IMG/VR virus record: IMGVR_UViG_3300029268_000027
Coordinates: 1-50,470 of that record
Direction: 5' to 3' (one strand)
From: a virus
DNA: 50,470 bases
In this document: positions 1-47,197 of the stretch, one piece after another
How the letters are laid out: each line of letters opens with the position of its first letter
How positions within the stretch are numbered: the stretch's first letter is position 1
The notes under the pieces: model-generated
Databases searched by the model: none
What the model was told of the DNA's origin: nothing
Seen by the model: the letters and a program-made list of their open reading frames with translations, nothing else
Position numbers and translations under genes: made by a program

Positions 1-1417
1 GACGAGTTACACCTTCAATACTTTTATTGGTCACTTCAAGTCTCTTACGGGCTTCTTCAGCACCCAACTTAGCTGTTAATTGTTTCTCGACCATCTGTAA
101 TAGATTTTGTTGAATATCCTGCAAACGCTGTATAGTATAAGACATCAAAGTTTCAGTCTTTCTTGATATCCCACTCTTATTGATGTAGTCATCTATGGAA
201 GACTGTAGAGCATCTCCCAGATTTACTTTCATAGCATCCTGTAGGGATTTCACTGACATTAAGCCTTGTATTTGTTTTGCTAACCCACGGATGTCTGTGA
301 CTCCATACTGTGCACCCCCAAAATCATTGAAAGTGACTCTAGGATCACCAATGTATCTTCCACCAATGGGTGCACCAATACCTTTACGACGACTCATAGA
401 CTCTATGTCATGAAACGTTTGACTTGGGGGTTCAAAAAATTGGGGCTTAGCGAAAGTAAAAACTATACTACGAGCAAACTGTTCAAAAGAACGAGCAGAC
501 TGTTTACCCTCTGGACCAAGTTCTTTTTCAAAATCCTCTTTGGCTCTGCCTACTGCCTCGCGCATCTTAGTGACTTGGTCTTGGAGGGAATTATTTTTTA
601 ACACCTTTTCTAACTCGGTAGCAATCTTTGACAACTCTCCCTTGTTAGCAATATCGTCTATTCTTTTTTTGAAGGACTCAATCTGCTGCGTCGCTTCCCT
701 ATGTGAAGCATAACCTACGTCAACTAATGCTTTATTTATCTGACTGTACATAGCGTCTAAATCATGCTGAATACGAAGTATCTCCTTAGCAGATTCTTCT
801 TTTGTCATTCCCGCCAGCTTCTGCATCTTCAATTCTATCTCTCTTGTAAACATATTGGGGGCGACCATCTGCTGAAGTGTTCTCTCAGGACGAACCTCCA
901 TGCGTTCACCAGAAAATGTTTGCAATACATCTGGCGTTTTTATATTCTTGACGAAGTCCATGTAGTCCAATAATAACTTACGTTGCTGTTCTAAACTACG
1001 CTTCATTCTATCGGAATGCTGTTCGCTGGAGTGAAATTGACGATCAAACTCACGCTGAAGTTCTTGGCGGGCTTGAGAATGTTCTTGTCTTTTAGTGAAT
1101 TCTTTAGAAAAAGGCTTAACTGGGTCAAATTCTTTTTTAGCTTCTGCAGGTAAAATGACTGGTGCAGCTGCTTTGAGGGCTCTAATCTGATTTTCTACCG
1201 CCCGCATTTCCTCAGATATGCGACGTTGGTAATCAGACCAAACAGAGGGATCGGGAGCATTCGCATACGTATTTTTAGCATCACGTATATCACGTATATT
1301 TATAGAAGAAAACTCCTCACGAACTTTTGACATAAAGTCTTTAAATTCGTTCTTTAGGTCTTCTCCTACACTGGTATCAATCTTTAGTTTTATATTAAAG
1401 GTGTAATCTTCTGCCAC
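1..1417 (-). CDS. Tape-measure-like tail protein, N-terminal part (runs off the window)
   Basis: The frame is open from a GTG at 1417 (protein begins VAEDYTFNIKLKIDT) to the window edge, about 472 codons. AGGTGG lies a few bases upstream of the GTG, just after the preceding gene's stop. The visible part is highly charged and mostly predicted helical or coiled coil, rich in Glu, Lys, Gln and Arg. It directly follows two tail-chaperone-like genes, the usual place of the tape measure gene, whose product sets tail length and is ejected with DNA. No transmembrane or lytic domain is visible in this part. Function is inferred from position and composition; another long coiled-coil tail protein is possible. 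Confidence 0.6.
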   Translation of the reverse strand, partial: MAEDYTFNIKLKIDTSVGEDLKNEFKDFMSKVREEFSSINIRDIRDAKNTYANAPDPSVWSDYQRRISEEMRAVENQIRALKAAAPVILPAEAKKEFDPVKPFSKEFTKRQEHSQARQELQREFDRQFHSSEQHSDRMKRSLEQQRKLLLDYMDFVKNIKTPDVLQTFSGERMEVRPERTLQQMVAPNMFTREIELKMQKLAGMTKEESAKEILRIQHDLDAMYSQINKALVDVGYASHREATQQIESFKKRIDDIANKGELSKIATELEKVLKNNSLQDQVTKMREAVGRAKEDFEKELGPEGKQSARSFEQFARSIVFTFAKPQFFEPPSQTFHDIESMSRRKGIGAPIGGRYIGDPRVTFNDFGGAQYGVTDIRGLAKQIQGLMSVKSLQDAMKVNLGDALQSSIDDYINKSGISRKTETLMSYTIQRLQDIQQNLLQMVEKQLTAKLGAEEARKRLEVTNKSIEGVTR

Positions 1418-2610: not shown

Positions 2611-3324
2611 TTATTTCTTTCGCTTAGGCTTCTCTTCTTTAACCTCTTCAACAACCTCAGCTCCCGTCGCCTCACTTTCTCCAAGAAGTTTCTGCTCATC
2701 TTCCTCTATTTCGCGACGAGCAACCGCTTCCGGTGTCTGGGATAGGAAGTCAGATTGTAAACCCTGCAGGTAGATCATGACCTGATATCTACTCATGTAT
2801 GCAAGCCCTGTTTTATCTGTCGTCTTATAACTCTCATAATCCGCCCATACACGTTTGCCAGTTGAGTCTTTCACCATAGACGCAGTGAGTGCTTCGATAC
2901 GGGCATCGTTTGACACCTGTTCACATGTGACTGACATGGGACTAGACGCACGCTGGTTCCATTTAAACAACTTGTTACGCGCATCCTCTACATCAACAAC
3001 CAATAGTTTCTTATCTTCTACGCTTGCTGCAACGGACAACTCGGCAATCTTGGTATCAAGGTCTTGGATAAGTGCTTGTCGCTTCTCTTCATAAGCCTTA
3101 CCCAATAGCCCCCGCTCCTCAAGTATCTCTTCCATTTGTGCCTCTGTAGTGACACCGGCGAGTAACGCTTCATTGTATGTACGACTATACATCCAATCAG
3201 CCGCCCTAGCATCCTCTATAGAAGGGTTATCAATATAATACTTTTCACCTTCATAAAGAAAGAACCTCTTATCATCAAATAGATTCTGAAGTTCCTGTTC
3301 TGCCTTATTCCTGTTGTCTGCCAT
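2611..3324 (-). CDS. Tail assembly chaperone-like protein, short paralogue
   Basis: 237 residues; ATG 3324 has GGAGG 8 nt upstream. The protein is acidic and helical and ends in a low-complexity Glu/Lys tail (EEVKEEKPKRKK). It shares with the downstream 365-residue gene the block T-E-A-Q-M-E-E-I-L-E-E-R-G and the block K-R-V-W-A-D-Y-E-S-Y, so the two look like a duplicated pair. Many siphoviruses make a short and a long chaperone from one locus by frameshifting; here there are two genes. The role is inferred from position after the tail tube gene. Confidence 0.55.
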   Translation of the reverse strand: MADNRNKAEQELQNLFDDKRFFLYEGEKYYIDNPSIEDARAADWMYSRTYNEALLAGVTTEAQMEEILEERGLLGKAYEEKRQALIQDLDTKIAELSVAASVEDKKLLVVDVEDARNKLFKWNQRASSPMSVTCEQVSNDARIEALTASMVKDSTGKRVWADYESYKTTDKTGLAYMSRYQVMIYLQGLQSDFLSQTPEAVARREIEEDEQKLLGESEATGAEVVEEVKEEKPKRKK

Positions 3325-3345
3325 ATTCCAATTCCTCCACCAAAA

Positions 3346-3627
3346 TTATTTTACGTGTCTTACTTCAATAAAGTCTTCCGCAGTAGGCACATACTCTATA
3401 GTATATGATCTTTCTAGTTCTTTCTCGAGCTGCCTTACGGCATCATTGGAGGCACGAAGGATTTTTGATCTGAGGGGTTTGAATGCTTCGGGGTTACCAG
3501 CAAGGGCAATTACCACACTTTCCACCTGATCCAAAATCTGTCCGTAAGCCTTTTTCTGTACATCCTGTACAGTCTTTGCGAGCTTGGCTCTGCTCTTTCT
3601 TTGAAGTTCCGTTTCTTCAATAGCCAT
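3346..3627 (-). CDS. Small helical tail-module protein
   Basis: 93 residues; ATG 3627 has a strong GGAGGGA upstream. The sequence is charged and almost entirely predicted helical, with an N-terminal region rich in Lys, Gln and Glu and a C-terminal YTIEYVPTAEDF segment. It lies between the terminator after the tail tube gene and the first chaperone-like gene. No family was recognised. A minor tail or assembly protein is the simplest reading. Confidence 0.6.
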   Translation of the reverse strand: MAIEETELQRKSRAKLAKTVQDVQKKAYGQILDQVESVVIALAGNPEAFKPLRSKILRASNDAVRQLEKELERSYTIEYVPTAEDFIEVRHVK

Positions 3628-3658: not shown

Positions 3659-3683
3659 GGGGGAGGTAGTTAATACCTCCCCC
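3659..3683 (-). terminator. Strong intrinsic terminator after the tail tube gene
   Basis: A perfect 10-bp stem (GGGGGAGGTA and TACCTCCCCC) with a 5-nt loop is followed on the minus strand by TTTTTAGG. It starts 30 nt after the stop of the 571-residue tail gene and precedes the 93-residue gene. This is the usual arrangement that keeps expression of an abundant tail protein above its downstream genes. Confidence 0.85.
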
Positions 3684-3712: not shown

Positions 3713-5428
3713 TTAGAACTGGTCAGCAGATGAGTTTCTCTCAATACAAGGAACGTCATGAATGTCCACATCGCCCTTTACGACGTAGAGCTCGTTAACA
3801 CTTCGGAAGTTAAATTCCTGAGTGGCACCAGCCCCACCGCCTCGTCCACCACCAACTGCATTGTTAAAGTTCTCAGCGGTAAGCTTGAGCCCAGGAACAA
3901 TAACAGTCTTCAACGGGCGTTCACGCGGAGGATCGGTACAAGAACCAACGTGACCAGAAGTATCTGGGTCAAAGGTTGGATAAGTAGCAGTACCATCCCA
4001 ATCATAGTATTCCTCGCCCACTAAACTAGACTGCATAGCCTTACGCCGCATACCTGTTCCACCAGCTTCCTCATCAGTTTGCTGGAAGACTTTGATAACA
4101 GCAATAAGGTTAGTCTTAGATGCAAGATGGGTTAAAGTAAGATCTATCCCATCCCCCCCTGACTCATAGTCAGCAGGCGTAAGACCCGATAGAATTGCGT
4201 GCTTCTCAAGGTCAGCCGCAGTAACCGTAGTATTAGTCGTGATTTCAACCGGAAAGTTCATTGAACGAGCATAAGGTCTTTGGTGACCAATCTCATTCTG
4301 AGCTGTACGAGCTGGATTCGCGGTAATAGTAATGGTCTGCATACGAAGTTGCATACTCCAATCGTTATTGGTCTTACCACTAAGTAGGTCCGGATCGATC
4401 AAATAAACTTCAATCTGACCCTGCCTAATAGCCCCTAGATCCTCGGCATGATGCCCAGCAGGATTGTCGGGAGCGGTAGAAGCACTAACTAGCTCGAAGT
4501 ACTTGGCATACACTTCATCAGCATCACCCTGCGAAGTTGCAAAGGCACTAGCAGCATAGGTAGCCTCTAGTTTATAGCCCTTCGCAGCTGCTGGGAACAA
4601 GGTTGCAGCATCAGTTGGGAATGTCAGTACATGAGTAGTATCATTGTAACCAAAGATACTAGCGGCGGCTGCATCTGCAACCTCATAGACGGTACCATCG
4701 CGATCACCATACGCCTTAACTACAACACCTTCTATACCCATTGTAGTCCACGACAAGAAAGCACGCTTACAGTTGGACAGAAGAGGAATAGTGTCAGTAC
4801 TAGGAGTAAGACCTATTGTGACAGCCTGGCTATTCTGCGGTGCATAAATAGTCCAAACTTCCTTAGAAATAAAACGCCCATTATTAACCAACCACATCTT
4901 GTTGTCAGTTTCCGCGGCGTAGTTCTCAGTTGCATTAGCCCCAACATTATAGGTAAGGGTCATTGAGTTAACAAAAACCTTATCCATAAAAAGAGACATT
5001 TGGATCTCATCATCTAAAGTGCCCAATGACGCCTCTTCCTGTACTGGGGCCCAAACTTTGACACCATTAGACAGAGTAAAGTCGGCAAGAGAAACACCAT
5101 GATAATATCTAGCAACACCTGAGCCGGTGCAGGACACATCTGTACGTATATAAGCACCACTAACTGTGGGTGTGCCTACCATGCGTAGCGGGTTCATACC
5201 AGCCAAGACCGCCATTGTATCAACATCGCCCCATGCATTGGTATCCAAAGCTACCGCTACTGCAGGGACGTCATCAACAACGTCAATCCTGTCAAGGTGA
5301 CCCAATTCAAATACGTCCTCAGCCGTAAAAGTTGTATTGCATCCCAAAGTCTGTGCCCGGTATAGGCGATGCCCATTAACAGAAACAGCCTGAGAGGCAT
5401 ACATAATTCTGTTACGTTTAGTAGCCAT
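3713..5428 (-). CDS. Major tail tube protein
   Basis: 571 residues, starting MATKRNRIMYASQAV; AGGAGG precedes the ATG. The N-terminus contains HRLYRAQTLGCNTTF followed by a Glu/Asp-rich VFELGHLDRIDVVDDVP, resembling tube proteins in which an early beta hairpin leads into a 'DVP' segment. The protein is beta-rich with many Thr, Ala and Val and a Gly-rich stretch (GGGRGGGAGA) near the C-terminus. It is long for a tube protein, so extra domains or a surface-exposed insertion are likely. A strong terminator follows, and chaperone-like and tape-measure-like genes come after it. Assignment is by position and general look, not by a diagnostic motif. Confidence 0.65.
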   Translation of the reverse strand: MATKRNRIMYASQAVSVNGHRLYRAQTLGCNTTFTAEDVFELGHLDRIDVVDDVPAVAVALDTNAWGDVDTMAVLAGMNPLRMVGTPTVSGAYIRTDVSCTGSGVARYYHGVSLADFTLSNGVKVWAPVQEEASLGTLDDEIQMSLFMDKVFVNSMTLTYNVGANATENYAAETDNKMWLVNNGRFISKEVWTIYAPQNSQAVTIGLTPSTDTIPLLSNCKRAFLSWTTMGIEGVVVKAYGDRDGTVYEVADAAAASIFGYNDTTHVLTFPTDAATLFPAAAKGYKLEATYAASAFATSQGDADEVYAKYFELVSASTAPDNPAGHHAEDLGAIRQGQIEVYLIDPDLLSGKTNNDWSMQLRMQTITITANPARTAQNEIGHQRPYARSMNFPVEITTNTTVTAADLEKHAILSGLTPADYESGGDGIDLTLTHLASKTNLIAVIKVFQQTDEEAGGTGMRRKAMQSSLVGEEYYDWDGTATYPTFDPDTSGHVGSCTDPPRERPLKTVIVPGLKLTAENFNNAVGGGRGGGAGATQEFNFRSVNELYVVKGDVDIHDVPCIERNSSADQF

Positions 5429-5638: not shown

Positions 5639-6442
5639 TTACCATCTGTACGTTTTGGTTTCGAAAGTGATTTCCGCACGATAACGATTTATCTGTTCCT
5701 TTTCATAGAAAGCCCATTGTGGTAGCCCAGACAGCTTTTTTTTCACATTCTCAAAAAACAAAGAAGTATATTCCGTGTGTACGGTCGTAGAGAATAACCC
5801 ATTATAAAAGCCCCCGCCTATCAAAGGCAAACCACTGGGAAACGTATACATGGGGCAACGCCGTGAGTCAAGGCCCGCAAAAATAATATCCATCAAGTCA
5901 TCCCGTTCTCCTTTATTCTTACCAAATATTTGAAGGTTCCAATAGCCTTCACGTATATCACCACCCCCTAGTTGTAGAGGAAGAGGTTGCCCCCTTTGTA
6001 GTTCGATAGACACGACAGGCAAAAAGGGCACATTGTCGCGGGGCCACGCGTCAAGAACTGAAACATAGTTCCACTCGTAGTCAACAGAGTAACTACTTAA
6101 ATCATCGTTGCTCTCAATCTGCCCTGCTAAATAATTGACTCTGTAACCAGAAGCAGTTACAGCACCATTATATATATTCACAATACCAGTTTGTTCACTA
6201 CCAAAAATACTAGTCTCCCCAACATAGTCAAAGTATAAAAGCCCTCTACCTCGTCCAGACGAATCACTACGTTTAAAAGGATAGTGTGTAGTATCAGTAT
6301 TGTCTCCATAACCGATATCCCACAACCCGGTGGATACTTGAGTTAAAGACTGCCCTGTCTCGGTCTCGGCGTAATGCGGCCCCAAAACAACATCTTTAAT
6401 ATACAAATAAAGACTAATGTCTTCTTGACGAGTTAAATTCAT
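5639..6442 (-). CDS. Tail completion / minor tail protein
   Basis: 267 residues, beta-rich, with aromatic and Gly residues throughout and no signal peptide. It ends FETKTYRW. It overlaps the sulfotransferase-like gene by 4 nt (ATGA), so it is translationally coupled to it. It is the last gene before the tail tube gene, where tail terminator or completion proteins usually sit. It is larger than typical tail terminators. No motif identifies it directly; the role is inferred from order. Confidence 0.5.
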   Translation of the reverse strand: MNLTRQEDISLYLYIKDVVLGPHYAETETGQSLTQVSTGLWDIGYGDNTDTTHYPFKRSDSSGRGRGLLYFDYVGETSIFGSEQTGIVNIYNGAVTASGYRVNYLAGQIESNDDLSSYSVDYEWNYVSVLDAWPRDNVPFLPVVSIELQRGQPLPLQLGGGDIREGYWNLQIFGKNKGERDDLMDIIFAGLDSRRCPMYTFPSGLPLIGGGFYNGLFSTTVHTEYTSLFFENVKKKLSGLPQWAFYEKEQINRYRAEITFETKTYRW

Positions 6443-7293
6443 CCTTGACCCCCGCCAAAAATTTTCTTAAACCAGGCTTTTATCCTAGCCCAAGTAAGCG
6501 GTGCCGCTGAAACAACTTCTCGAAATTCCTTTTCCACAACGGGAGCAATTGATACAAAAACATAATCCACCTTGTTCTTCTCGTAACACGTAAGAGCATA
6601 ATCGTAAAATTCAGCATCAAGTTGGTTGTGAGCACGAATAAGGTTTATTATCTCGGGTGGCTCATCCTGTATAGCTGGGCGGATAGTAGGATTGAGTCTT
6701 GGTATATCTTGAAGAGCCCACCCAAAATCCTGATTGCACATTTGAATGAATTCTTCATACTTTTCAGTAACTCCGAATGAAGTAAATAAATTTACTAAAT
6801 TTTCTTTAGCATACATTAATTCTCTTCGTGAATTATAATCAATCTTAGGTAATGAAGAAAAAAGATTAACCTGCAAGTTCTGCATTCCCATTCGTTCTCC
6901 AAGACCGAGTTCGTAGATTTCCTTGATAGAGTATTTTATCGCGATTGAATGTGCGTCATGCTCTTTATTTGCTCTTAAGAAATAATACTGAGATAAAACT
7001 CGATCAACAGGTTCTCGTAGAAGTGTAAGGTGGGTAATAGGCACAATCCAGTTAACATACCCCAAATTTGCCAGCGAAAAATGCCCGGCGAAAGCACGAT
7101 ACCCTAATGAACGGGGGTAATTGCCCATGGCATTTTTTAACTCAGCACCAATCAAACGTTTAAATCCCCCATCAAACATCCGTTCCAACAATTTACAAAA
7201 AGTTGTCCCGCCAGTTTTGGGGACATGGAAAAATAATACCGTATTATCTGCGTTTTTATCCCGCACCCGTAACTTTTTCAAATGAGTAAGCAT
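6439..7293 (-). CDS. Sulfotransferase-family protein (PAPS-binding P-loop)
   Basis: 284 residues. Residues 21-31 read FFHVPKTGGTT, the 5'-phosphosulfate-binding loop of carbohydrate sulfotransferases. AGHF at residues 69-72 carries a His placed like the catalytic base of 2-O-sulfotransferases. LLREPVDRVLSQYYFLR at 91-107 carries the Arg and Ser (R93, S101) that bind the 3'-phosphate of PAPS. The core family elements are therefore present. Substrate cannot be told: a host glycan, the phage's own tail proteins or a small metabolite are all possible. The C-terminus is basic and amphipathic (WARIKAWFKKIFGG), suggesting membrane or protein contact. The start lies 2 nt after the previous stop, and its stop overlaps the next tail gene. 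Confidence 0.8.
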   Translation of the reverse strand: MLTHLKKLRVRDKNADNTVLFFHVPKTGGTTFCKLLERMFDGGFKRLIGAELKNAMGNYPRSLGYRAFAGHFSLANLGYVNWIVPITHLTLLREPVDRVLSQYYFLRANKEHDAHSIAIKYSIKEIYELGLGERMGMQNLQVNLFSSLPKIDYNSRRELMYAKENLVNLFTSFGVTEKYEEFIQMCNQDFGWALQDIPRLNPTIRPAIQDEPPEIINLIRAHNQLDAEFYDYALTCYEKNKVDYVFVSIAPVVEKEFREVVSAAPLTWARIKAWFKKIFGGGQG

Positions 7294-7295
7294 CC

Positions 7296-7901
7296 TTATT
7301 CTCCTTCATATTTATTTATAGCCTCAGACACGATAGATTGTATATCTACCTTTTCCATCGCATCCCGAAAGAACGGGATAGGAGAAGCACCAGAAGCAGG
7401 ATGCTCATACTGTTCAAAACTACCTACCGTATACCAACCTTCCCGTTCCCATGCACTCTCGCTAATAAGAAACCCACCATTATACACAGCCGGCATTGGT
7501 TCTCCTTTTTTAGCAAAATAGATATCTGGTCCTACAAATGCGTATCTCCCGCCAATACCTCTAATTAAATAGACTAACCAAGCCACAGGAACTGGGGTGT
7601 GCAGTAACTTAGTTCTATCTTCAGTGTATCCCAACACCTCATCCTTGCACAGACCTACCTCTAGGCTGCCGTCTTCAGTTAGCCTTAGACTCTCGTCCCA
7701 TGTTTCCTTTAAATGCTTTACAATAAACCCCAAATGATTTTTTATATTAGTGGGGTCATCCTGCGGGGAGCGGTCGGATAAATCTTCAAACTCTTCCAAA
7801 AAAGCACCGATAACTTGTTTACCCCCAGGCTGGTCCGACCCCATATAACTTAGTATAGCTTGTCGCAATTGGTCCGAAAACTTTGTTACTTCCTGCCCCA
7901 C
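7296..7901 (-). CDS. Head-tail joining region protein
   Basis: 201 residues. The N-terminal half is acidic and helical; the C-terminal half contains GGRYAFVGPDIYFAKKGEPMP and GGFLISESAWEREGWY, rich in Gly and aromatic residues. No transmembrane segment or catalytic motif is visible. The stop is 2 nt from the start of the sulfotransferase-like gene, and the start shares a base with the preceding gene. It lies in the block between the capsid genes and the tail tube, so it is probably a neck, stopper or tail completion protein. The family was not recognised. Confidence 0.5.
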   Translation of the reverse strand: MGQEVTKFSDQLRQAILSYMGSDQPGGKQVIGAFLEEFEDLSDRSPQDDPTNIKNHLGFIVKHLKETWDESLRLTEDGSLEVGLCKDEVLGYTEDRTKLLHTPVPVAWLVYLIRGIGGRYAFVGPDIYFAKKGEPMPAVYNGGFLISESAWEREGWYTVGSFEQYEHPASGASPIPFFRDAMEKVDIQSIVSEAINKYEGE

Positions 7902-8452
7902 TATACAATCTCCTCACTACTATCGGCGGTAGCACAAACAATCTCTACTATTCCATCAATAGATCCCATCCCACGTGGTACAGGATAGTCACGCCCAACA
8001 AGTGTCCTACCATCAACAATAAAATATTTCGCACTACAAAAATCATCAAAATACTTACTGTCAGCTTTTAAAGAAACCAAGTCTTGCTCAAGAGTTCCTA
8101 CTGGAGAATCAGGAGACTCTTGCTTAAGTTCCCATATTACATGTGCTTTTATAGTTTTCTCATTAGGAATACTTAAAATACCCTTACCACGGCATACAGG
8201 GCATAGGTGCCTAAAAGATGTAGAAGTTACTATCTTTTCATAAGCGGTGCCCACAAAAAGAGTTTTGGTCCCGACAAAAGAAGCGTTATACTGAGCATCA
8301 GAAGATTCTGACATGTGGTCGTAGAAACAATTAGGACATGTCTCTACTAGAACACTGTCAAAGCCAATAATGATATCTTTACTCAGATTTAATACTAACT
8401 GTTTCTGAAACTTTTTAAACTCTTCTTTAAAACTTGCCGGGACCAAGTCCAT
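7901..8452 (-). CDS. Head-tail joining protein with two CxxC zinc knuckles
   Basis: About 183 residues from ATG 8452, 2 nt after the upstream stop and with GGAG 10 nt before it. A longer frame to 8503 would overlap the previous gene by 49 nt and has no better ribosome site. Cysteines at 39/42 (CPNC) and 84/87 (CPVCRGKG) form two knuckles about 40 residues apart, the second like the DnaJ-type CxxCxGxG motif. A single structural zinc site is likely. A beta-rich C-terminal half follows. Position suggests a head completion or connector protein. Confidence 0.5.
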   Translation of the reverse strand: MDLVPASFKEEFKKFQKQLVLNLSKDIIIGFDSVLVETCPNCFYDHMSESSDAQYNASFVGTKTLFVGTAYEKIVTSTSFRHLCPVCRGKGILSIPNEKTIKAHVIWELKQESPDSPVGTLEQDLVSLKADSKYFDDFCSAKYFIVDGRTLVGRDYPVPRGMGSIDGIVEIVCATADSSEEIV

Positions 8453-8454
8453 TT

Positions 8455-8994
8455 TTATGACACTCCTTCGGTCGCTAATTCCTGTAATCGGTCTTCCAAC
8501 CAACCCCGCACACGTTCCTGCCCCGCTAAATTTTTTGCCATGCTGAGGGCTGCCTTAAGCTTTCTCAAATCTACGCAGTCTTCAATAGTGCTTTTCCCAA
8601 CGTCATCCGCAGGCAGCAAAGCAATCTGTTTAGGAGTCAATCCAGCGGTATCCATCTTTCGGCGGGTCTCCCGAACAGCAAAAACATTCTGTCTCTTACG
8701 CTTCTGTGTGCTTCCCTGTGCTATACGATTACGTTTTGCAGGAGAAAGCGAGATTGTGCCATCGAACTCAAAAGCCCATAGTCTCGGGTCCGCAATATCC
8801 TGTACCCAGTCCAAAAATACAGGAAACTGATCACGAGTGAATTCCGAATTTCCGATGATACCTGCCTTAGCAGTTCTCTTGGGTTTACAAAACCCCTCAA
8901 AAATGGTCTCCAGATCGATTGTAGCATCCGGTTTGACCTGTTCCTTTAATAAAATTGCATACTTTCCACTAATGTTCCTTGCTAGATATGCCAT
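8455..8994 (-). CDS. Head-tail connector-region protein, unknown family
   Basis: About 179 residues from ATG 8994 (MAYLARNISG), chosen because GGAGG lies 8 nt upstream; a GTG at 9009 overlaps that ribosome site. The middle is basic (SPAKRNRIAQGSTQKRKRQN) and the C-terminal half is helical. It is the first gene after the histidine kinase and opens the neck/tail block. No family was recognised. A connector or head completion role is possible, but a nucleic-acid-binding role would also fit the basic segment. Confidence 0.5.
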   Translation of the reverse strand: MAYLARNISGKYAILLKEQVKPDATIDLETIFEGFCKPKRTAKAGIIGNSEFTRDQFPVFLDWVQDIADPRLWAFEFDGTISLSPAKRNRIAQGSTQKRKRQNVFAVRETRRKMDTAGLTPKQIALLPADDVGKSTIEDCVDLRKLKAALSMAKNLAGQERVRGWLEDRLQELATEGVS

Positions 8995-9116: not shown

Positions 9117-12100
9117 TCACCTTGTTATTATTCCTGCAGGTGGTGCTTGAGCTGGAAATGCTACAACAAACTTTGTGCACCCAGGACAACTAGAATACCT
9201 TATATGACCACCGTAGGCTGCAACAGTGTCTCTGACCATGGCAAGACCCAATCCCTGGTTGTATTCGTCTGGATTTTCTTTAGTAGAAAAGTATGGCTCA
9301 AATATCCTATCACCCAAAGATGCATCTATCCCCTTCCCATTGTCAATAACCGTAATTATTACATTACCATCTTCTAATGCAACTTCTATTGTTATCTCGG
9401 GGTCGTTATGCATAATAGCCTCTCTGGCATTCCTGCACAGATTAGTAATAAGCTGCGAAAAGTCTATACGGTTAATAGAGATAAAATACCTATCGGAATT
9501 ATTTTGCAAAGTTTTCAGAACAAAATTGGTATCGCTGAGACTTTTAAAGTGATCCGTAAACATAAGAGTACGCATTATAGTCTTTAACTCAGGAATTACA
9601 TTAATTAGGTGTAATTCATCATTACTTGCTATTTTTGAATAATCAGACAATGAGTTGAGCACCTTAATGGAGTATTCAGTACGCTCTATACCATCCCCAG
9701 CCAAGTCTACTATATCAATCGCTGTATCCCTTAGCACGGCATAACACTCATGCGCATGAGTATCACTACAATTAAGCAACAAACAAGCTTTTTCCACTTC
9801 CTCATTTATAAGTTCCAGACAGTTCAGGATAGACTGCATAGGCGTGCGTAACTCATGGGCTACCCCCGAATTAACTAACCGAGAAGACTCCAACAAATCA
9901 CGCGTCTTAGCTATTTCCAAAATTTTTATCCGGTCCTCTTGCCATGCTCTTTTAACAGCAACAGCAATAGACAAAGCCAACTCTTCCATAAAAAAAATTG
10001 TATTTTCCGTAAACTTATTTTTTGCCTTATTATTTAATTGAATACACCCAATTATCTCTGATCCGGCAGAAAGTGGGATAATAGCTACAGATTCATATCC
10101 TGCCCGATTACACTGATTTCTCATCTTAATATTTAGTTCCCCGCAAACCCCGCTTAGTGGATCAGTTGTACTGTTCGTCCAAAAACTACCGCCCTTTGTA
10201 AAGAAAGAGCACACAGAGTCCGTCAGACCAGCAATAACACGCCCACAAATACATTGAAGAAGTGGAAGTTCTTTATCCGCACTCTTACTTTTATGTATAC
10301 CAGGTTCGCACAAATAGTTTTCTAATTCTATAAATTCTTGATCGAACCCCCTATAAACAAAGTAGGGAAAATCATCCCCTTCTTGTAAACGCAACCCAAT
10401 CGCGTCCACTCCGGTATAGTCCTGTATTAACTTAAGTAACTCTTCAATTGTTTGGATACCGGTATAAGGCTTATTCAGGTGTTTCAAAATATTAATTATT
10501 AGTTCCTGTTGCGCTTGTAGTATCTCTTTTTGACCTTCAGCCTCTTTACGTTCCGTTATATTCCTAACATTGCACTGAATAAAAGCAGAACCATTAACAG
10601 AGTAACTGTTGCTAATAAACTCAACTTGCAATACTCGTCCATCCCCAGTTTCCAAAGGTAAGTCTTCATACCGCACGTATCCTTCTCGCTGCAATCTATC
10701 AAAGATATCTTTATTTTTAAGACAATCCACAAATGGACTAACTTCCCAAATCTGCTTACCAACAAATTCGCCGTGGGAATAACCCAACATTTCCACCATA
10801 AAAGGATTTACATCCAATATCTTACCGGTATCAAAATCAAGTATCAGAATCCCATCTTGTGCACTCTCGAACAATCGTCTATATCGTAATTCACTGTGCT
10901 CCAGTGCGATCTCGGCGGTCTTACGATCAGTTATATCACGTGCTATCGTAGAAGCACCAATTACAGTATTAGTATTATCTAGAATTGGTGAAATAACCAA
11001 AGAAACGTTTACTATTTTACCATCTTTTCTTCGCCTTACAGTCTCATACCGATTTATATGCTCCCCCCGTATTATCCTAGCTATTAAACCTGTAATTTCA
11101 TTTTTATATTCTGGGAGAATCAAAATAGATACATGTTTACCGATAACTTCTTCGGGTTTATACCCATAAAGATTCTCAGCACCTTTATTCCAATCCGTAA
11201 TTTTACCATCCAACGTTTTACCAATAATAGCATCATCCGAACATTCAACAATAGTTGCTAATCTAACATTCTTTTCTTCCATCTGAAGTCTTTCTGTAAT
11301 GTCATCTATAATCTCTACTGCACCTAATATATTACCTTTAGAATCTTTAATTGCTACAGCTGTAAAATGTAACCAACGCCCACTCTCACCAAGCATAGGG
11401 AAGAAGTCTGTAGCCTCATACGCCCCCTCGATTAACTTAAGTCGACCACACTTGTTGCCATATAACCGATCTATTGACTCCTCATCCTGGTCCACTAGAA
11501 GATCAGCCAAACTCGGGCGAGCTGAAGGATAAAACGATTCCCAACTTTGGCTCTTGCCTACCACCTGATCTGCCTTCATACCAGTAATTTCTTCCAAGGC
11601 ACGATTCCAGAATATAATGTGATGATTATGATCAATAACGAATTGGGGAACAGGAGAATCATACACTATTGCCCGTAATTCAGCTTCAGCACGCTTAATT
11701 TTTGCATTAATAATATCTTTTTCAACAGCGTAAACACAGGCTTTGTATAGGAGGGTAGGGGTAATGTCGGGTTTGGATAAGAACTCACTAGCACCCAGCA
11801 AGAAACAACTGAAGGATAAACTATTGGAGTCATTACCAGTTACTACAACAACAGGTAAGGAGGAGAATAAGGACTTAAAAACAGTGAGAGTATCTAGTCC
11901 CCGAGTCTCGATTAAATTCAGGTCTAATACTACAACATTAGCAGGAGCAGATAACAGCAAATCCTGCAACTCATTCAGTGACTTACAAGTGTGAATACTA
12001 CTGACTCTTGGCATATCACCAAGCATGGAGGAAAATAACTCGGTTATTTCTTCTTTGTCGTCCACTATAACTATATCTAAATTCGGTTCCATAGGAGACA

Positions 12101-12119
12101 CCAAATCTTTAAGCCACAC
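9117..12119 (-). CDS. Hybrid sensor histidine kinase: REC - PAS x3 - GAF - HisKA - HATPase
   Basis: 1000 residues; GTG 12119 has AGGGG upstream, overlapping the preceding stop. An N-terminal receiver domain (about 14-130) has D20/D21, phospho-acceptor D66, T94 and K116. Three PAS domains follow (about 150-265, 285-400 and 405-520; the second and third joined by ITDRKTAE), then a GAF-like region (about 540-710). The dimerisation domain has VAHELRTPMQSILN (phospho-acceptor His). The ATPase domain shows N box NLCRNAREAI, G1 DNGKGID and G2 GLGLAMV. All catalytic motifs are present and there is no transmembrane segment, so it should be an active cytoplasmic kinase. It lies directly downstream of a stand-alone response regulator. 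Signal and output are unknown. Confidence 0.93.
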   Translation of the reverse strand: MWLKDLVSPMEPNLDIVIVDDKEEITELFSSMLGDMPRVSSIHTCKSLNELQDLLLSAPANVVVLDLNLIETRGLDTLTVFKSLFSSLPVVVVTGNDSNSLSFSCFLLGASEFLSKPDITPTLLYKACVYAVEKDIINAKIKRAEAELRAIVYDSPVPQFVIDHNHHIIFWNRALEEITGMKADQVVGKSQSWESFYPSARPSLADLLVDQDEESIDRLYGNKCGRLKLIEGAYEATDFFPMLGESGRWLHFTAVAIKDSKGNILGAVEIIDDITERLQMEEKNVRLATIVECSDDAIIGKTLDGKITDWNKGAENLYGYKPEEVIGKHVSILILPEYKNEITGLIARIIRGEHINRYETVRRRKDGKIVNVSLVISPILDNTNTVIGASTIARDITDRKTAEIALEHSELRYRRLFESAQDGILILDFDTGKILDVNPFMVEMLGYSHGEFVGKQIWEVSPFVDCLKNKDIFDRLQREGYVRYEDLPLETGDGRVLQVEFISNSYSVNGSAFIQCNVRNITERKEAEGQKEILQAQQELIINILKHLNKPYTGIQTIEELLKLIQDYTGVDAIGLRLQEGDDFPYFVYRGFDQEFIELENYLCEPGIHKSKSADKELPLLQCICGRVIAGLTDSVCSFFTKGGSFWTNSTTDPLSGVCGELNIKMRNQCNRAGYESVAIIPLSAGSEIIGCIQLNNKAKNKFTENTIFFMEELALSIAVAVKRAWQEDRIKILEIAKTRDLLESSRLVNSGVAHELRTPMQSILNCLELINEEVEKACLLLNCSDTHAHECYAVLRDTAIDIVDLAGDGIERTEYSIKVLNSLSDYSKIASNDELHLINVIPELKTIMRTLMFTDHFKSLSDTNFVLKTLQNNSDRYFISINRIDFSQLITNLCRNAREAIMHNDPEITIEVALEDGNVIITVIDNGKGIDASLGDRIFEPYFSTKENPDEYNQGLGLAMVRDTVAAYGGHIRYSSCPGCTKFVVAFPAQAPPAGIITR

Positions 12120-12127
12120 AAAGACCC

Positions 12128-12541
12128 CTATTCGTTAACTACTGAGACATGTGTCTGTTCCGCCAAACATACGGCATCAAACAAATCATTTATTCTTACG
12201 GGCTTTTCCATTAAATAAGTACCTATACCGTTAGAAGTATCTACTTTGGTCATAGATTGTGCTCGCTGAAATAATTCTACGTTGTAAGCTAACCCTGTTA
12301 TAAAGATGATAGGAATATTGTTATTTAATTCTTTACGAATAAAATCATAGACCGTAAGCCCAGAATTGGACGGGCCATTCAAACGCAAATCTAATAGAAC
12401 TAGAGAAGGCATCTTGTCAGATATTTCTTTTTTAGCCTTATCGACAGATTCAGCGATTCTCACCTCATACTGTGCAGTCAGCTTCTTTGACCACATCTTA
12501 GTCACGATGGGATCATTTTCTACGATTAGTACATCCATCAT
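12128..12541 (-). CDS. Single-domain response regulator
   Basis: 137 residues, one receiver domain: E8/D10 acidic pocket, phospho-acceptor D51 in LVLLDLRL, T82 in FITG and K113 in MEKPV. There is no DNA-binding or output domain. An insert of about 15 residues lies before the Lys motif (SMTKVDTSNGIGTY). Its start overlaps the stop of the membrane coiled-coil gene (ATGA), and it ends 8 nt before the kinase. It is the natural partner of the kinase and, as a CheY-type protein, probably acts by protein contact or passes phosphate on. Confidence 0.92.
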   Translation of the reverse strand: MMDVLIVENDPIVTKMWSKKLTAQYEVRIAESVDKAKKEISDKMPSLVLLDLRLNGPSNSGLTVYDFIRKELNNNIPIIFITGLAYNVELFQRAQSMTKVDTSNGIGTYLMEKPVRINDLFDAVCLAEQTHVSVVNE

Positions 12542-14959: not shown

Positions 14960-15110
14960 TATTCCCCACGCCTAAAGGCGGGGGGCTTCTTTGGCAGAGC
15001 CAACAGTCTGTAGCCCCAGACTGAGAATATTTATCGCAGCATTAACATCTCTATCAATTTCGAAATTACAACATGGGCACTTAAAAACTCTAGTTGATAA
15101 TGGAATCTTT
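14957..15110 (-). ncRNA. Predicted TnpB omega-RNA (reRNA)
   Basis: TnpB guides are made from the 3' end of tnpB plus the right end of the element, with the guide taken from the flank beyond it. Here that means the last tnpB codons, the right-end hairpin, then a guide beginning near TCGTAAGTGGAAGAAG in the endonuclease remnant. Boundaries are estimates; the RNA is predicted from family knowledge. Confidence 0.5.
14964..14985 (-). repeat. Right-end hairpin of the TnpB element
   Basis: GC-rich hairpin with core CGCC-TTTA-GGCG on the minus strand. The tnpB stop codon lies in its loop. 21 bases (14964-14984) are exactly repeated in inverted orientation at 37798-37818, at the omega-RNA end of the IscB element. 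Confidence 0.85.
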
Positions 15111-16093
15111 TGACGATATCCACAATGTGAGCAAATTTGGCTAGTGTAGGCGGGATTGACTTTGATTACTATTCTACCGGCGCATTCTGCCTTGTAGACC
15201 AGCATATCAAAGAAATTTCGCCAAGCCACGTCTGCTATTCCACGGTTAATGCAGCGAAAGTTATCTTTTTGCATATTATTGATGGACAGGTCTTCAATAG
15301 CTATCACACCATAGGCGTCTATGAGTTTACGAGACAGCTTGTGAGCAAAATCTTTTCTCTTGTTCGTGATTCGCTCATGAACGCGAGAAACTATCTTGCG
15401 ACACTTGTGCCTCTTACGGGTTCCTTTGGTTTGTTTGGAAAGTCTGCGTTGAACCTTTGCAAGATTTTTAGCCTCTTGTTTAAAGAAACGAGGGTTATCA
15501 ACCTTTTCACCATTAGAGAGTGTCATGAACGAAGAGAGTCCTGCGTCAAGCCCAACAGAGACAGTATTGTCAGGGAGAATATTTCTATCTACTTCGCAAG
15601 AGAAAGAGATAAACCATTTCTGAGTTGCAGTTTTTCTAATGGTACAAGTCTTGATTGTCCCTTCAGTTGGTCTATGAATTACTGCTTTTACTTTCCCAAT
15701 TTTGGAAAGACTTACGGATTTTTCGTTGAGTCTGAATCCAGTTTGAGGGTATGTGAAGGAGTCATATCTACCGAATCCACGAAACCGAGGATATCCGGGA
15801 TCGACACCTTGTTTCACTCTGCGGAAGAAAGCCTTAAATGCAAGGTCTATTCTGACGGCTACATTTTGCAAAACTTGAGAATGAATGTCTTTAAGTTCAG
15901 GAACGCGTTCTTTCAGTGTAGGAAAGGTTGCTTGTTGGTCATAGAGAGAAAGCCCTTTATGGAATTGTTCCCAACTATTTTTACGCTGTTCCAGCAGATG
16001 ATTATACAACCGCCTGCATTGCTCAAGGGTATTTAGCAGCAATGTTTGTTGCTTCTTAGTTGGATAAATCCTGTATTGAAAAGACTTTCTCAT
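14972..16093 (-). CDS. tnpB: TnpB RNA-guided endonuclease
   Basis: 373 residues, starting MRKSFQYRIYPTKKQQ, the usual OrfB opening. RuvC-like residues are D183 (SVGLDAG), E267 (IAIEDLS) and D349 (DRDVNAAINI). Zinc ribbon cysteines are C321/C324 and C339/C342. A basic bridge lies at about 215-250. All catalytic positions are present, so it looks functional. TnpB cuts DNA next to a target-adjacent motif under an RNA guide and helps its element persist. The motif is probably TTAC, the bases next to the left end. Confidence 0.95.
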   Translation of the reverse strand: MRKSFQYRIYPTKKQQTLLLNTLEQCRRLYNHLLEQRKNSWEQFHKGLSLYDQQATFPTLKERVPELKDIHSQVLQNVAVRIDLAFKAFFRRVKQGVDPGYPRFRGFGRYDSFTYPQTGFRLNEKSVSLSKIGKVKAVIHRPTEGTIKTCTIRKTATQKWFISFSCEVDRNILPDNTVSVGLDAGLSSFMTLSNGEKVDNPRFFKQEAKNLAKVQRRLSKQTKGTRKRHKCRKIVSRVHERITNKRKDFAHKLSRKLIDAYGVIAIEDLSINNMQKDNFRCINRGIADVAWRNFFDMLVYKAECAGRIVIKVNPAYTSQICSHCGYRQKIPLSTRVFKCPCCNFEIDRDVNAAINILSLGLQTVGSAKEAPRL

Positions 16094-29049: not shown

Positions 29050-30594
29050 TTAATCCCCCTCACCTCGACTAAGATACTTCTTAGCATATGGTGCAAGCCG
29101 ATTTTGTGCTCGATTTCTTAATTCACTATCAGTATCACTTCCTAGTACAGCCTTGATTTGCTTAGCCTTAACTAACGCATCCTTCAGGCGTGTCAAGTCA
29201 ACTTTACCTGAGCTATCCTTAAAAGGAAGGTGGCGTGCATTCTTGTCCATATGATCTTTATACCCGGTTTCAACAACTGCAAAACATGAATTAGGTAAGC
29301 TCTCTATAAACTGGGTGGTCCAAATAGCAGCAGATTCGTTCTCACAAGCCCACACCTCACGGGCGTAACTAGCAGCAGCCAACTTGTAACCTACAGAAGC
29401 AACGCACCCTTCTTCTACTACACCTTCGGTACTGGCTTCCTCATCTCCGCTAGGTACTAAACCGTCCTCTTCTTTGTTTGTACTTCTAGTGTCAAACAAC
29501 CAACGTCCTACAGGGTCTTTAGTCCAGCGATGACAATCTTTAAAAGTTCTATCACCCGCTGTCACACACTGCTGATCTGCATAAGCACACCACATATCAG
29601 CGTCCAACCGATATTGCGGGCACGCAGCAGGAAAAGAAGTGAAATCATTGGGTGTATGAGGAAGTCCAACCCCAGTAGGGGGATTAGCAGTAGGCGGTGC
29701 CGAAGGGATAAAAGTGTCTGTTGCTTGTTCGTCGTTAGGACAATCGCAGTTTTCTAATGTTTCTATCACCTGAAAATTTATAGGAGATATCTCTTTATTG
29801 TTTCTAATTAACTCCATATAAGACTCAACACGACGAAGATCCAAAGAGAAGAGTTGGGATGCTGTTGCCATCTCATCTTCATCGTTTCCACTTATATTCA
29901 ACACAGTACAACTGGGACATGCTGGAGAACCAACCACAGCTACTCCTGCCCACGTGATATCATGAAGAAACTTGAATAATTTAAGTTTCTTTTTACTCTG
30001 GTCTGCACATGTAACCATCAAACTATGTGCATTATCAAAATCTTCCTGGGACTTAAACTTACCAAACAACTGTTCAATAAATTCGGCTAATCCTAATGCC
30101 TCAGCCTCTTCTAAAGACAGTTTAATACCATTCTCCAAAAGCAAAGAAAATGCATCAAACCAGCATTCCATAGACAACCCATAAGCTTTTCTACTCATTG
30201 AACTTTCTATCTGTGGGAACCGATCGATGTAAACTATTCCACCTATAACAACATCAATATGTTTTTCAGGATTAAAGTTATCTGAAGTTATCAACAAGTT
30301 AGATTCACGTTCGATATACGCACCTTGGTAAATATGCCCAATTACTTTGTCTACTTCATGCTCAATATCAATTGCTTTATTAAGTAAAGTGGGTCGTGCT
30401 TTTACCAATTCCGCTTGGTCAAAATATGCTCGATTAAGATTAGGGCCACTTTCTACCATTTTGCCGGCAAAAGCAATCAAATCTGGCGTAACTACCTCTG
30501 GAAAGGAGATGTGCTTATATATGTCCTTTCTAGGCTTCTTATCCATAATCTCAATCTGGTAAGGAGCACTACCAAATAATCGATATTTACTCAT
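29050..30594 (-). CDS. Prohead protease-like protein with C-terminal extension
   Basis: 514 residues. The N-terminal third looks like a phage maturation protease: His79 in AIDIEHEVDKVIGHI and Ser141 in YGLSMECWFD, with the expected beta strands between. A linker and a Cys-rich middle follow (CPQYRLDADMWCAYADQQC). The C-terminus RHLPFKDSSGKVDLTRLKDAL...RAQNRLAPYAKKY matches a short helical domain often found on phage head proteins. It follows the portal genes and overlaps the endonuclease gene by 4 nt. It would cut scaffold and capsid proteins. Much longer than typical proteases. Confidence 0.7.
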   Translation of the reverse strand: MSKYRLFGSAPYQIEIMDKKPRKDIYKHISFPEVVTPDLIAFAGKMVESGPNLNRAYFDQAELVKARPTLLNKAIDIEHEVDKVIGHIYQGAYIERESNLLITSDNFNPEKHIDVVIGGIVYIDRFPQIESSMSRKAYGLSMECWFDAFSLLLENGIKLSLEEAEALGLAEFIEQLFGKFKSQEDFDNAHSLMVTCADQSKKKLKLFKFLHDITWAGVAVVGSPACPSCTVLNISGNDEDEMATASQLFSLDLRRVESYMELIRNNKEISPINFQVIETLENCDCPNDEQATDTFIPSAPPTANPPTGVGLPHTPNDFTSFPAACPQYRLDADMWCAYADQQCVTAGDRTFKDCHRWTKDPVGRWLFDTRSTNKEEDGLVPSGDEEASTEGVVEEGCVASVGYKLAAASYAREVWACENESAAIWTTQFIESLPNSCFAVVETGYKDHMDKNARHLPFKDSSGKVDLTRLKDALVKAKQIKAVLGSDTDSELRNRAQNRLAPYAKKYLSRGEGD

Positions 30595-31409
30595 AATAAT
30601 TCCTCCCTAACTTTGTTCCATTTTCTATCAAGGTGTGGGCAATCAATGCTAACGAGTTTGCTCAGTATATGTTCCGCACGCTTGCCCCTTATCTGGTAGA
30701 TAAACCTATACGCTTGTAACTGCCCTCCCCGACGCATCCCAAGCACACTTGCTGGTTTACCTACAGGAGGAACAAGGTCATCAAAAGCACATTTTATAAA
30801 CGAAAGTAACTCATAAGTGCCTGATGCACCTACAAACCAGTCTGTTCTATTCTGTAGGTTATTGGTATACTTACCAACCGTACCATCACCATCTACATAA
30901 CCAATCGAGTACGCCAAAATCTGATTTACATCCTGCAGATTGGGTGGTTGTAAAATAAGAGATTTTTTAGGAACAATATTGAAATGGTGTCTTAACTGTT
31001 CCACCCATCTTTCGCATACCACATACATTTGTGCGGACCATCCCCTATTTGGCCTTTCCTTAAGATATACTTTCCCGCCAAATTCGGTTAATGACGCAAA
31101 TCTAAGTAATTGGGTGTAATCCCTAATCTGAAGTTCAAAACTAAGTTGTTTATACCTAGGATAAATACACCCATCCGCTGCAATAAACCCCCCATAGTAA
31201 CAGTTCTCTAGGGTCAGTTCATCAAAATAATGCTCATTGGGTGTATACTTCGACACCTTGTGTAGAGGTAATCCATACTTTCTAACTTTGTCAATAATTG
31301 TATGAACTGAGCACCCCAATGTTTGGGCAAGTTCTCGATTAGACATTTTATCTCTATTATTTTTCAAGAATTCTATGTCTTCCAATGTTAATTTAGGTCC
31401 AGGCATCAT
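30591..31409 (-). CDS. LAGLIDADG homing endonuclease, apparently intact
   Basis: 272 residues. An N-terminal HTH (LTLEDIEFLKNNRDKMSNRELAQTLGCS region) is followed by LAGLIDADG helix 1 (YYGGFIAADGC, about 71-81) and helix 2 (AYSIGYVDGDGT, about 166-177). Both acidic catalytic positions are present. It ends LDRKWNKVREELL. The gene is slotted between portal and protease genes with ATGA overlaps at both ends, so its spread left translation coupling intact. A truncated relative lies at 16180-16737. Such enzymes cut alleles lacking the gene, often in the flanking genes. Confidence 0.9.
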   Translation of the reverse strand: MMPGPKLTLEDIEFLKNNRDKMSNRELAQTLGCSVHTIIDKVRKYGLPLHKVSKYTPNEHYFDELTLENCYYGGFIAADGCIYPRYKQLSFELQIRDYTQLLRFASLTEFGGKVYLKERPNRGWSAQMYVVCERWVEQLRHHFNIVPKKSLILQPPNLQDVNQILAYSIGYVDGDGTVGKYTNNLQNRTDWFVGASGTYELLSFIKCAFDDLVPPVGKPASVLGMRRGGQLQAYRFIYQIRGKRAEHILSKLVSIDCPHLDRKWNKVREELL

Positions 31410-32656
31410 ACCAACCCCTCTTCCTGATTTACCAGGCTACCTAATTCTATACCCTTAATCTCCCTTATTGCCTTGATAAGTGTTTCTAAAGAGTTCAATT
31501 CCTGCTCATCAAACAGCTCTGCTATGCTAGCTGCTTGGCGGTGTATCTCTTCCTTCTTTATAGTTCTTACCTCTTTCTTAATTATATGCTTCGTTTTTCC
31601 TTCTGGGGTCGCTGGTGCCGGGGTCTTAGGTGCAGGCTGACCTTTCGGACGGCCCTCCGAGGGCGTGCCGGATGGTGTTTTTTGCTTGTCTTGACTATCT
31701 CCGCTATTACCAGCACCCTGTTGGTAAGGAGACCCGAGAATACCAAAGTTCCCATCAATAACATCTTTCTTTTCTTTGGTAAGCATCTTTTTTTCAAACT
31801 CTGGATCAAATCCAAGCAGTTTGTGTGCGGTTTCATAAGAGATAATACGCCTATCTACCAAAGACATTACTAGGGTCTTCATAGCTAATTCATCTTTTAA
31901 AATCATATCGTCCCAACGAATAGAAGGGATGCGCTTAAATCCATACGCATCTGCAATAGCTTTATACTCTTTATACAGCCACCGCGTAACTTGTCGACGT
32001 GCAAAAGCAATCTCTGCAGTCAGGGACTTAACAGCCATAGACATGGCTTCTTTACTGGTATTACCAATTACCAGACCATCTAACAGGGCCCTAGGAACCC
32101 GCATTGACCCTGAAATATCTCTTTCAGCTTGTTCAAATTTATCCGCCCCAAAGATTTGGTCTACGTTTTGCGCGGACACTCTTTCTACTTTTAGAGTATG
32201 GTTCCAAACCACCTGAAAAGCTTTCTGTGCTGTATTAAATAAATCCGAAACTTTTTTCAAGTCATCCACACGCAAAACAGGATTGTCTTTATCGCCGACA
32301 GTAATTACTAATATTTCTGACGTAATACCATCTATTGTACTATAGTCAGCCTCGCGTAAAGATTTCTTATATTCTACAGCCTCTAGAGCTCTGACCATGG
32401 GATTAATAGCATACTTTTCGTAAGGACGTCGCCTATTATCTATCGCCCCCACAAAATCCGGATCAAGCTCTATTGGCTTACCTTCCTTAATAGCATGCTT
32501 TATCTCTGGGGGCATACTCTCTAGTATGGATTTCTCCGCATCGGTAATTTTCCCTGTAATACTCTCTCGTTTCACCAGTTCCGACATTTCGTCTGATGGG
32601 TGCAAAACCACACGGGTTTGATTAAAATCTGGAGGACCTACCAGTTCTACAGCCTG
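31406..32656 (-). CDS. Portal protein, C-terminal part (-1 frame)
   Basis: The coordinates start at the first codon after a -1 slip at 32656-32662, giving 416 residues; the first in-frame start codon, a GTG at 32611, has no ribosome site. Sequence such as QAVELVGPPDFNQTRVVL follows on naturally from the upstream ORF's AYTVLNP. Features fit a portal: a helical stem-like region (SVDRRIISYETAHKLLGFDPE), an acidic insert and a Pro/Lys-rich linker before a helical C-terminus. It overlaps the endonuclease gene by 4 nt. The portal forms the ring through which DNA enters the head. Confidence 0.75.
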   Translation of the reverse strand, partial: QAVELVGPPDFNQTRVVLHPSDEMSELVKRESITGKITDAEKSILESMPPEIKHAIKEGKPIELDPDFVGAIDNRRRPYEKYAINPMVRALEAVEYKKSLREADYSTIDGITSEILVITVGDKDNPVLRVDDLKKVSDLFNTAQKAFQVVWNHTLKVERVSAQNVDQIFGADKFEQAERDISGSMRVPRALLDGLVIGNTSKEAMSMAVKSLTAEIAFARRQVTRWLYKEYKAIADAYGFKRIPSIRWDDMILKDELAMKTLVMSLVDRRIISYETAHKLLGFDPEFEKKMLTKEKKDVIDGNFGILGSPYQQGAGNSGDSQDKQKTPSGTPSEGRPKGQPAPKTPAPATPEGKTKHIIKKEVRTIKKEEIHRQAASIAELFDEQELNSLETLIKAIREIKGIELGSLVNQEEGLV

Positions 32657-33420
32657 GGGTTTAATACGGTGTACGCAATCGGGATAAAACCCTTAGACCA
32701 ACGCTTCTTTCTTGCAGCATACTCTTTTAGATTCTCTGCTTCTGGTATATAATCCGGTATCTGCCCTTGTAGCCACATTTGTCTTTGCAACTTATAATCC
32801 AAGTCATCTTCCCCCTCTTGTCTCTTGGGAGTCGCGGGTTGCGGGGGCTTCTTGACCTCCGACAATGTATTAACCTGAGGTTCATAACGCCCTACCACCT
32901 TATAGGTACGAACTAATCCGGAAGTAAAAAACTCGTGATATATCCATTCCAAAACTTGCTCCAGATCAACATCCTGGCACCAATTATCATAGAACTCTTT
33001 AATAGCCATATCCTCGCAATCATTCTCAAAACCAGACACGGCGAGATCTGCTTTGACGTCAATATACGATCCAAAAACGTCCATACTACGATAATACCCA
33101 AATATTCTATTATAAATTTTCTTGGGGTGCTCAGAAGTGATGTCAGGTTTAGCAAGATCAAGATCGGAATGTATAAGTGCGTCTCGGTAAGTGATTTCAG
33201 CTATAGCACGCTGCTTAACTCTTATCTCGGGTGGAACATGTCTCCCGTCACGTGCCAATGCTGGTTGTTCTTCAGGGGCTAACACAGCAAGCCTAGGACG
33301 AAATATTAACTTAGTTGTACCATCCTCTGCCTTTTGTGCTCCCGCAAATTCCGCATCGGGGTAATCATTTAGAAACGCCTGAACCTCTTTTTTTGCCTTT
33401 GCAACAATCCTCTTAGCCAT
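32647..33420 (-). CDS. Portal protein, N-terminal part (zero frame)
   Basis: 257 residues. A Lys-rich start, Arg/Pro-rich strand (KLIFRPRLAVLAPEEQP), and IYNRIFGYYRSMDVFGSYIDVKADLAVSGFEND followed by an acidic helix are typical of the N-terminal clip and wing of portal proteins. The ORF ends ...IAYTVLNPRL, just where a portal would continue to its main wing strands. The start overlaps the terminase stop (TAATG). Alone this product would be a truncated portal fragment. Confidence 0.75.
   Translation of the reverse strand: MAKRIVAKAKKEVQAFLNDYPDAEFAGAQKAEDGTTKLIFRPRLAVLAPEEQPALARDGRHVPPEIRVKQRAIAEITYRDALIHSDLDLAKPDITSEHPKKIYNRIFGYYRSMDVFGSYIDVKADLAVSGFENDCEDMAIKEFYDNWCQDVDLEQVLEWIYHEFFTSGLVRTYKVVGRYEPQVNTLSEVKKPPQPATPKRQEGEDDLDYKLQRQMWLQGQIPDYIPEAENLKEYAARKKRWSKGFIPIAYTVLNPRL
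32656..32662 (-). promoter_or_regulatory. Candidate -1 frameshift site A AAC CCC in the portal gene
   Basis: In the zero frame the codons are TTA AAC CCC AGG CTG TAG; the heptamer A AAC CCC fits X XXY YYZ exactly. A -1 slip continues as CAG GCT GTA GAA into the 416-residue second half. The overlap of the two frames is only about 45 nt. A second match, G GGT TTT (32686-32692), lies upstream in the same overlap. A sequencing error in the C run is the alternative. Confidence 0.6.
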
Positions 33421-36374: not shown

Positions 36375-36395
36375 CCCCGTGCTTTAGCACTGGGG
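36375..36395 (-). repeat. Hairpin at the iscB 3' end
   Basis: Stem CCCCGTGC/GCACTGGGG with a TTTA loop on the plus strand. The iscB stop codon lies in the loop. It resembles the left-end hairpin of an IS605-type element read on the plus strand, opposite to iscB. Confidence 0.75.
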
Positions 36396-37592: not shown

Positions 37593-37822
37593 GTTTCGCT
37601 CCTCTTTTCTGAGGTTGGGACCGCATCGGGATTGTTGGAAACCGTTTTTAAGCTGGACACACCGTCCCTACCCACCAGGACTTTTAATGTCCAACCACAG
37701 TCGCCCGAAACGTGCGGAATATTTTGGGGTGTGTATGTATTTCTGGTTCTCAACTGCTGCAAATTAATGCCCCCTAGTCAACCAAGGCTCTTTCAAGCCC
37801 CCGCCTTTAGGCGTGGGGTGGT
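37593..37822 (-). ncRNA. Predicted IscB omega-RNA
   Basis: A non-coding stretch upstream of iscB, where IscB guides are encoded. It begins with the GC-rich hairpin at 37797-37818, continues through TTGGTTGACTAGGGGGCA, and contains a pairing GTTGGACATTAAAAGTCC segment and other stem-forming runs. The guide would lie just 5' of the hairpin on the minus strand, i.e. in the end of the 97-residue gene (about GGTTAAAGTAGGTCAACC). Boundaries are predicted from family knowledge, not measured. Confidence 0.65.
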
Positions 37823-47180: not shown

Positions 47181-47197
47181 GTTATAAGACAATTTTA

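Follow-up and report, generated by a model that had tools for sequence, protein, structure and literature searches.

We report a gene that lies among the neck and tail genes of a jumbo phage and is predicted to encode a glycan-type (HS2ST/HS6ST-like), PAPS-dependent sulfotransferase. The window, a 50,470-nt stretch of viral DNA (IMG/VR record IMGVR_UViG_3300029268_000027), carries it on the minus strand as a 284-aa ORF at 6439-7293, the coordinates given by the initial annotation. We put at about even the chance that the product is a glycan sulfotransferase made late in infection, associated with the inner membrane and working together with the glycan genes of the phage, its probable targets being sugars on the host surface. 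Taken together, the place in the late tail block, the gene company, a putative membrane-type C-terminal tail and one degenerate copy lead to a specific hypothesis that can be tested: a host surface glycan is sulfated at the membrane.

A coupled gene in the neck and tail module

The sulfotransferase ATG lies 2 nt past the stop codon of an upstream 201-aa gene, whose 3' end holds the AAGGAG ribosome-binding site, and its own stop codon overlaps the start of the next gene in an ATGA (6439..6442, minus strand, as are all neighbors described here). That next gene (5639..6442) encodes a 267-aa tail terminator/gateway-like protein. It has a weak sequence match to a terminator protein, and a model built from 17 homologues finds phage neck, tail-terminator or collar proteins in most of its top 30 fold matches, each match being modest (E 5e-3 to 0.1). 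On the upstream side, the 201-aa product (7296..7901) is a clade-specific neck-module protein with 57-66% identity in relatives, and beyond it lies a neck-module protein (7901..8503) whose CxxC pairs are conserved and which is itself conserved over a wider phage group. Downstream of the terminator-like gene is a 571-aa major structural protein (3713..5428), probably the tail tube, which was found at 33 loci and has a weak PHROG 'virion structural protein' match; neither PDB nor PHROG profiles gave a usable match for a tail tube, so that identity is based on gene order, together with conservation. An intrinsic-terminator-like hairpin follows (3659..3683), in the interval that holds the sulfotransferase in two relatives. 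The module continues with two small genes of 93 and 237 aa, conserved in synteny (2611..3627), and the start of a long coiled-coil ORF (2..1417; open-ended, 472+ aa) that gave no family match and is a probable tape measure.

The order neck genes, terminator, 571 aa, 93 aa, 237 aa and 369 aa is kept in about 30 phages, whose records yielded no Sulfotransfer_2 match outside the close clade. Matches to major capsid, split portal, terminase and spanin in the window confirm a tailed-phage structural region. The initial annotation had described an insertion among neck and tail genes through 2-nt and ATGA junctions, and the sequence, the terminator-like fold next door and the conserved order bear this out. 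Its statement that the enzyme is made with virion parts would follow from the operon layout.

A separate 259,732-bp viral contig, G001 (IMGVR_UViG_3300029286_000009), carries 12.2 kb of this region at 99.97% identity; it terminates within the window, at position 3088. An assembly artefact is therefore unlikely, and the window is, judging from this match, the end of a jumbo phage whose genome measures at least some 260 kb. We also considered recent transfer of the gene by base composition, which was uninformative: its GC content of 39% is inside the range of the neighboring genes.

Predicted family, fold and PAPS site

The protein matches Pfam Sulfotransfer_2 (PF03567) at E 8.2e-7, with 29.8 bits against a curated cut-off of 22, and PHROG 3347, 'Galactose-3-O-sulfotransferase', at E 5.9e-5. 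A phmmer search of PDB sequences retrieved heparan sulfate 2-O-sulfotransferase (HS2ST) at E 9e-6. The HVPKTGGTT, GHF and REPVDRVLS motifs are all present, and in the alignment they coincide with residues of the HS2ST PAPS site. K26, H71, R93 and S101 fall opposite HS2ST K83, H142, R164 and S172 (numbers of the MBP-fusion chain minus 302), of which K83, R164 and S172 presumably act in the PAPS site. The PAPS-loop lysine, the catalytic histidine and the 3'-phosphate arginine and serine of Sulfotransfer_2 are all found. HS2ST H142 is the putative catalytic base, and its mutation abolishes activity (PMC6094399); these sulfotransferase families are defined by their PSB lysine and PB serine (PMC11625862).

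An AlphaFold2 model made from 15 relatives has a pLDDT of 84.9 and a pTM of 0.80. For this model Foldseek ranks PAP-bound structures of HS2ST and HS6ST first in the PDB (4ndz, 5t05; E ~1e-7, probability 1.00, TM 0.56-0.62 of the query), with cytosolic SULTs next, and the alpha/beta fold of the glycan sulfotransferases is recovered. The initial annotation had proposed comparing a predicted structure with the HS2ST and Sulfotransfer families and named the lack of a PAPS pocket as grounds for rejection. HS2ST and HS6ST came out best and the PAPS-site residues are present, so no such lack was found, and the call of a PAPS-type sulfotransferase with intact motifs agrees with profile, fold and residues alike. 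No tyrosylprotein sulfotransferase (TPST) appeared among the phmmer sequence matches or the best 50 fold matches, and a search for a Sulfotransfer_3 domain found none. How widespread is the protein? By tblastn against 50,697 phage records it had no match at E 0.01 and only two weak ones at E 10, and a scan of bacterial genomes with the sulfotransferase protein alone returned no close relatives.

Copies in related phages

The clade as used here comprises the four viral records in which the 201-aa gene occurs: the window phage/G001, G002, G003 and G034. Tail-module homologues of the sulfotransferase occur in G002 (545 kb) and G034 (211 kb), with tblastn identities of 31% and 28%; both lie between the 571-aa and 93-aa genes, whereas the window copy stands before the terminator gene. 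The tail module of G003, a 67-kb fragment, has no sulfotransferase. Within the clade, sulfotransferase identity is 26-34%, against 49-70% for neighboring genes.

In a tree of 51 rows, the three tail copies group with one G034 copy with support (96/85), and constraining the three tail copies to one clade gives a slightly better fit than leaving the tree free. Descent of tail and glycan-cluster copies as one vertical lineage was considered and set aside: in the tree, G001 and G002 have second copies that form a separate group (100/98), although a joint clade was not rejected (p 0.42). The PAPS-site residues are complete in the window and G002 tail copies. In the G034 tail copy R93 is replaced by Q, S101 by A, H23 by Q and P25 by T. 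It has lost both 3'-phosphate-binding residues while retaining the reading frame and the C-terminal helix, which indicates that the tail-locus enzyme is not always active. Its clade-mate in G034, beside an APS kinase gene, retains the K, H, R and S of the PAPS site.

A possible membrane-targeting C-terminus and glycan gene company

The window protein ends in a basic amphipathic helix, LTWARIKAWFKKIFGGGQG (6442..6498, minus strand), that resembles a MinD membrane-targeting sequence. Endings of the type W(F/L)xxIF(G/N) occur in 3 of the 51 sulfotransferases compared, namely the three tail-module copies. E. coli MinD terminates in KKGFLKRLFGG, and nine of ten positions are identical or conservatively replaced between the window ending KAWFKKIFGG and MinD KGFLKRLFGG. 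The C-terminal helix of MinD binds lipid (PMC6803595). When hydrophobic moments were compared with those of same-residue shuffles, the window helix was unusual (134/5000), and those of G002 (459/5000) and G034 (899/5000) were less so. Searched against the PDB by itself, the C-terminal tail gave only a chance homeodomain match. The sequence of the helix suggests that it would hold the sulfotransferase at the membrane.

G001, G002 and G034 each encode a second sulfotransferase within a glycan-synthesis cluster, among GT17-like, TylF, methyltransferase, hexapeptide and epimerase genes; G002 also encodes GHMP-kinase and nucleotidyltransferase proteins. The glycan cluster is about 211 kb from the tail sulfotransferase within the contig. 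APS kinase makes PAPS, and G002 and G034 both encode one, G034 in a cassette (L092:728-2788) of Sulfotransfer_1, APS kinase and Sulfotransfer_2 followed by methyltransferase genes. No APS kinase was seen in the DNA of the window phage, a possibly incomplete genome. Is the PAPS destined for sulfur assimilation? We discarded this reading: PAPS reductase is absent from all four clade records, so the PAPS apparently serves transfer.

Other elements of the window

Several further features of the window and of related phages deserve record. The portal is split into two ORFs of 257 and 401 aa, each with a weak portal match (31406-33420, minus strand), and a LAGLIDADG-like ORF (30591-31409) adjoins it. 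In the distant relatives L027, L030, L033 and L038-L040, the first ~40 residues of the 571-aa protein lie ~0.6-2.4 kb apart from the remainder, which suggests a large inserted domain or an intron/intein. Between the lysis and neck genes, at 9117-12541 (minus strand), are a 1000-aa PAS/GAF sensor histidine kinase with a receiver domain and a separate response regulator; both have relatives at the corresponding position in each of the three remaining phages of the clade, and a two-component system is unusual within a phage late block. A TnpB (IS605 OrfB) gene at 14972-16093 (minus strand) adjoins the lysis genes, and an IS605/TnpB right-end remnant that matches the window's own TnpB end lies just upstream of the G034 tail sulfotransferase (L043:10764-10834). 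An IscB-like protein with RRXRR and HNH domains (36384-37826, minus strand), adjacent to a HEARO/omega RNA over the Rfam cut-off, is likely an RNA-guided nuclease of the phage. Finally, a phage-borne tmRNA over the Rfam cut-off (47195-47715, minus strand) has an unusual predicted tag, ASSPGYEAKLTWWRHAGNRVP.

What is sulfated, and where?

In the reading that we prefer, the sulfotransferase would be translated alongside neck and tail proteins late in infection, and its C-terminal amphipathic helix would tether it to the inner membrane of the host, on the cytoplasmic side. The PAPS donor would be host-made in the window phage, two relatives having an APS kinase of their own. The glycan that receives sulfate from PAPS would most likely be a lipid-linked precursor of surface polysaccharide, remodeled by the phage's own glycan cluster. 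The sulfated surface sugar would then alter the cell surface, for example by preventing competing phages from adsorbing or progeny from adsorbing again. The HS2ST/HS6ST-like fold, the C-terminal helix, the glycan-cluster sulfotransferases and the APS kinases point to glycans at the membrane. The initial annotation offered host surface sugars, modified to block superinfection, as one alternative; the evidence lies nearer to this one as regards glycans at the membrane, while the superinfection block stands as a proposal. Against the preferred reading we count the degenerate G034 tail copy, the window phage DNA without an APS kinase, the distance to the glycan cluster and the less unusual hydrophobic moments of the G002 and G034 helices, membrane binding being deduced from sequence.

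Could the position among tail genes mean nothing at all? The strongest rival to a membrane-associated glycan sulfotransferase is an ordinary moron, a late accessory gene in a gap between tail genes, acting on any host glycan or small molecule. Single sulfotransferases do occur across many unrelated settings in phages, a replication module among them; the clade's late block holds other non-structural genes (a kinase, TnpB and homing-endonuclease-like ORFs); a transposon end lies beside the G034 tail copy; and the sulfotransferase diverges far more than its neighbors. We nevertheless consider a moron unlikely: the gene occupies the same module, at two sites, in three of the four clade members, and each of these copies has the C-terminal helix. 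Less probable still is that the virion itself is sulfated, on glycans or tyrosines of tail, neck or fibre proteins, with the tail position reflecting co-assembly with the substrate. This was the other proposal of the initial annotation, for tail or fibre, and it found no support. Coupling to the terminator-like gene and persistence in the tail module despite a varying site would suit it, but the nearest folds are glycan enzymes rather than TPSTs, the C-terminal helix looks to be of membrane type, the tail copy is degenerate in a relative with otherwise similar tail genes, and the tail module of the fourth clade member has none.

The G034 copy, which keeps frame and helix without R93 and S101, raises the further thought that the tail copy was, or is turning into, a non-catalytic virion or assembly protein. 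We regard such a pseudo-sulfotransferase as very improbable, given the intact PAPS sites of the window and G002 copies and the lack of any homologue known as a structural protein. The membrane-associated glycan sulfotransferase might also belong to something larger. These jumbo phages would run a dedicated sulfation pathway, built from several sulfotransferases, nucleotide-sugar and glycosyl-transfer genes and, in two of the phages, their own APS kinase, and the membrane-anchored copy in the tail operon would sulfate a host surface glycan as virions mature, a charge-based exclusion or release system. We hold this only as a tentative and rather doubtful possibility.

Comparison with known systems

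Phage sulfotransferases are known auxiliary genes (PMC8290583, PMC10580990), with a role that one of these papers calls unclear (PMC10580990). Our literature search found no paper with a sulfotransferase in a tail module or paired with a phage APS kinase, which is weak evidence of novelty given that subscription journals were mostly outside the search; it fits the remark in the initial annotation that such genes are seldom noted in tail modules. Like the auxiliary-gene enzymes (PHROG 3347), the window protein is phage-borne and PAPS-type. It differs from them in its place in the neck and tail module, its coupling to a tail-terminator-like gene and a C-terminal helix absent from the other phage copies compared. 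With the heparan sulfate 2-O- and 6-O-sulfotransferases (PF03567) it shares the fold, the PKT of the PAPS loop, the GH catalytic-base motif and the R...S 3'-phosphate motif, yet identity is only ~18%, and the phage protein carries a C-terminal amphipathic helix and lacks the Golgi N-terminal anchor. The helix is similar to the membrane-targeting sequences of MinD and FtsA, which are likewise short, basic, amphipathic and C-terminal; the likeness is confined to the tail, and the proteins are unrelated. For the proposed role the parallel is Sinorhizobium LpsS, which sulfates a bacterial surface polysaccharide, lipopolysaccharide, but is of another sulfotransferase family (Stf0 type) and is encoded by the host (PMC12445080).
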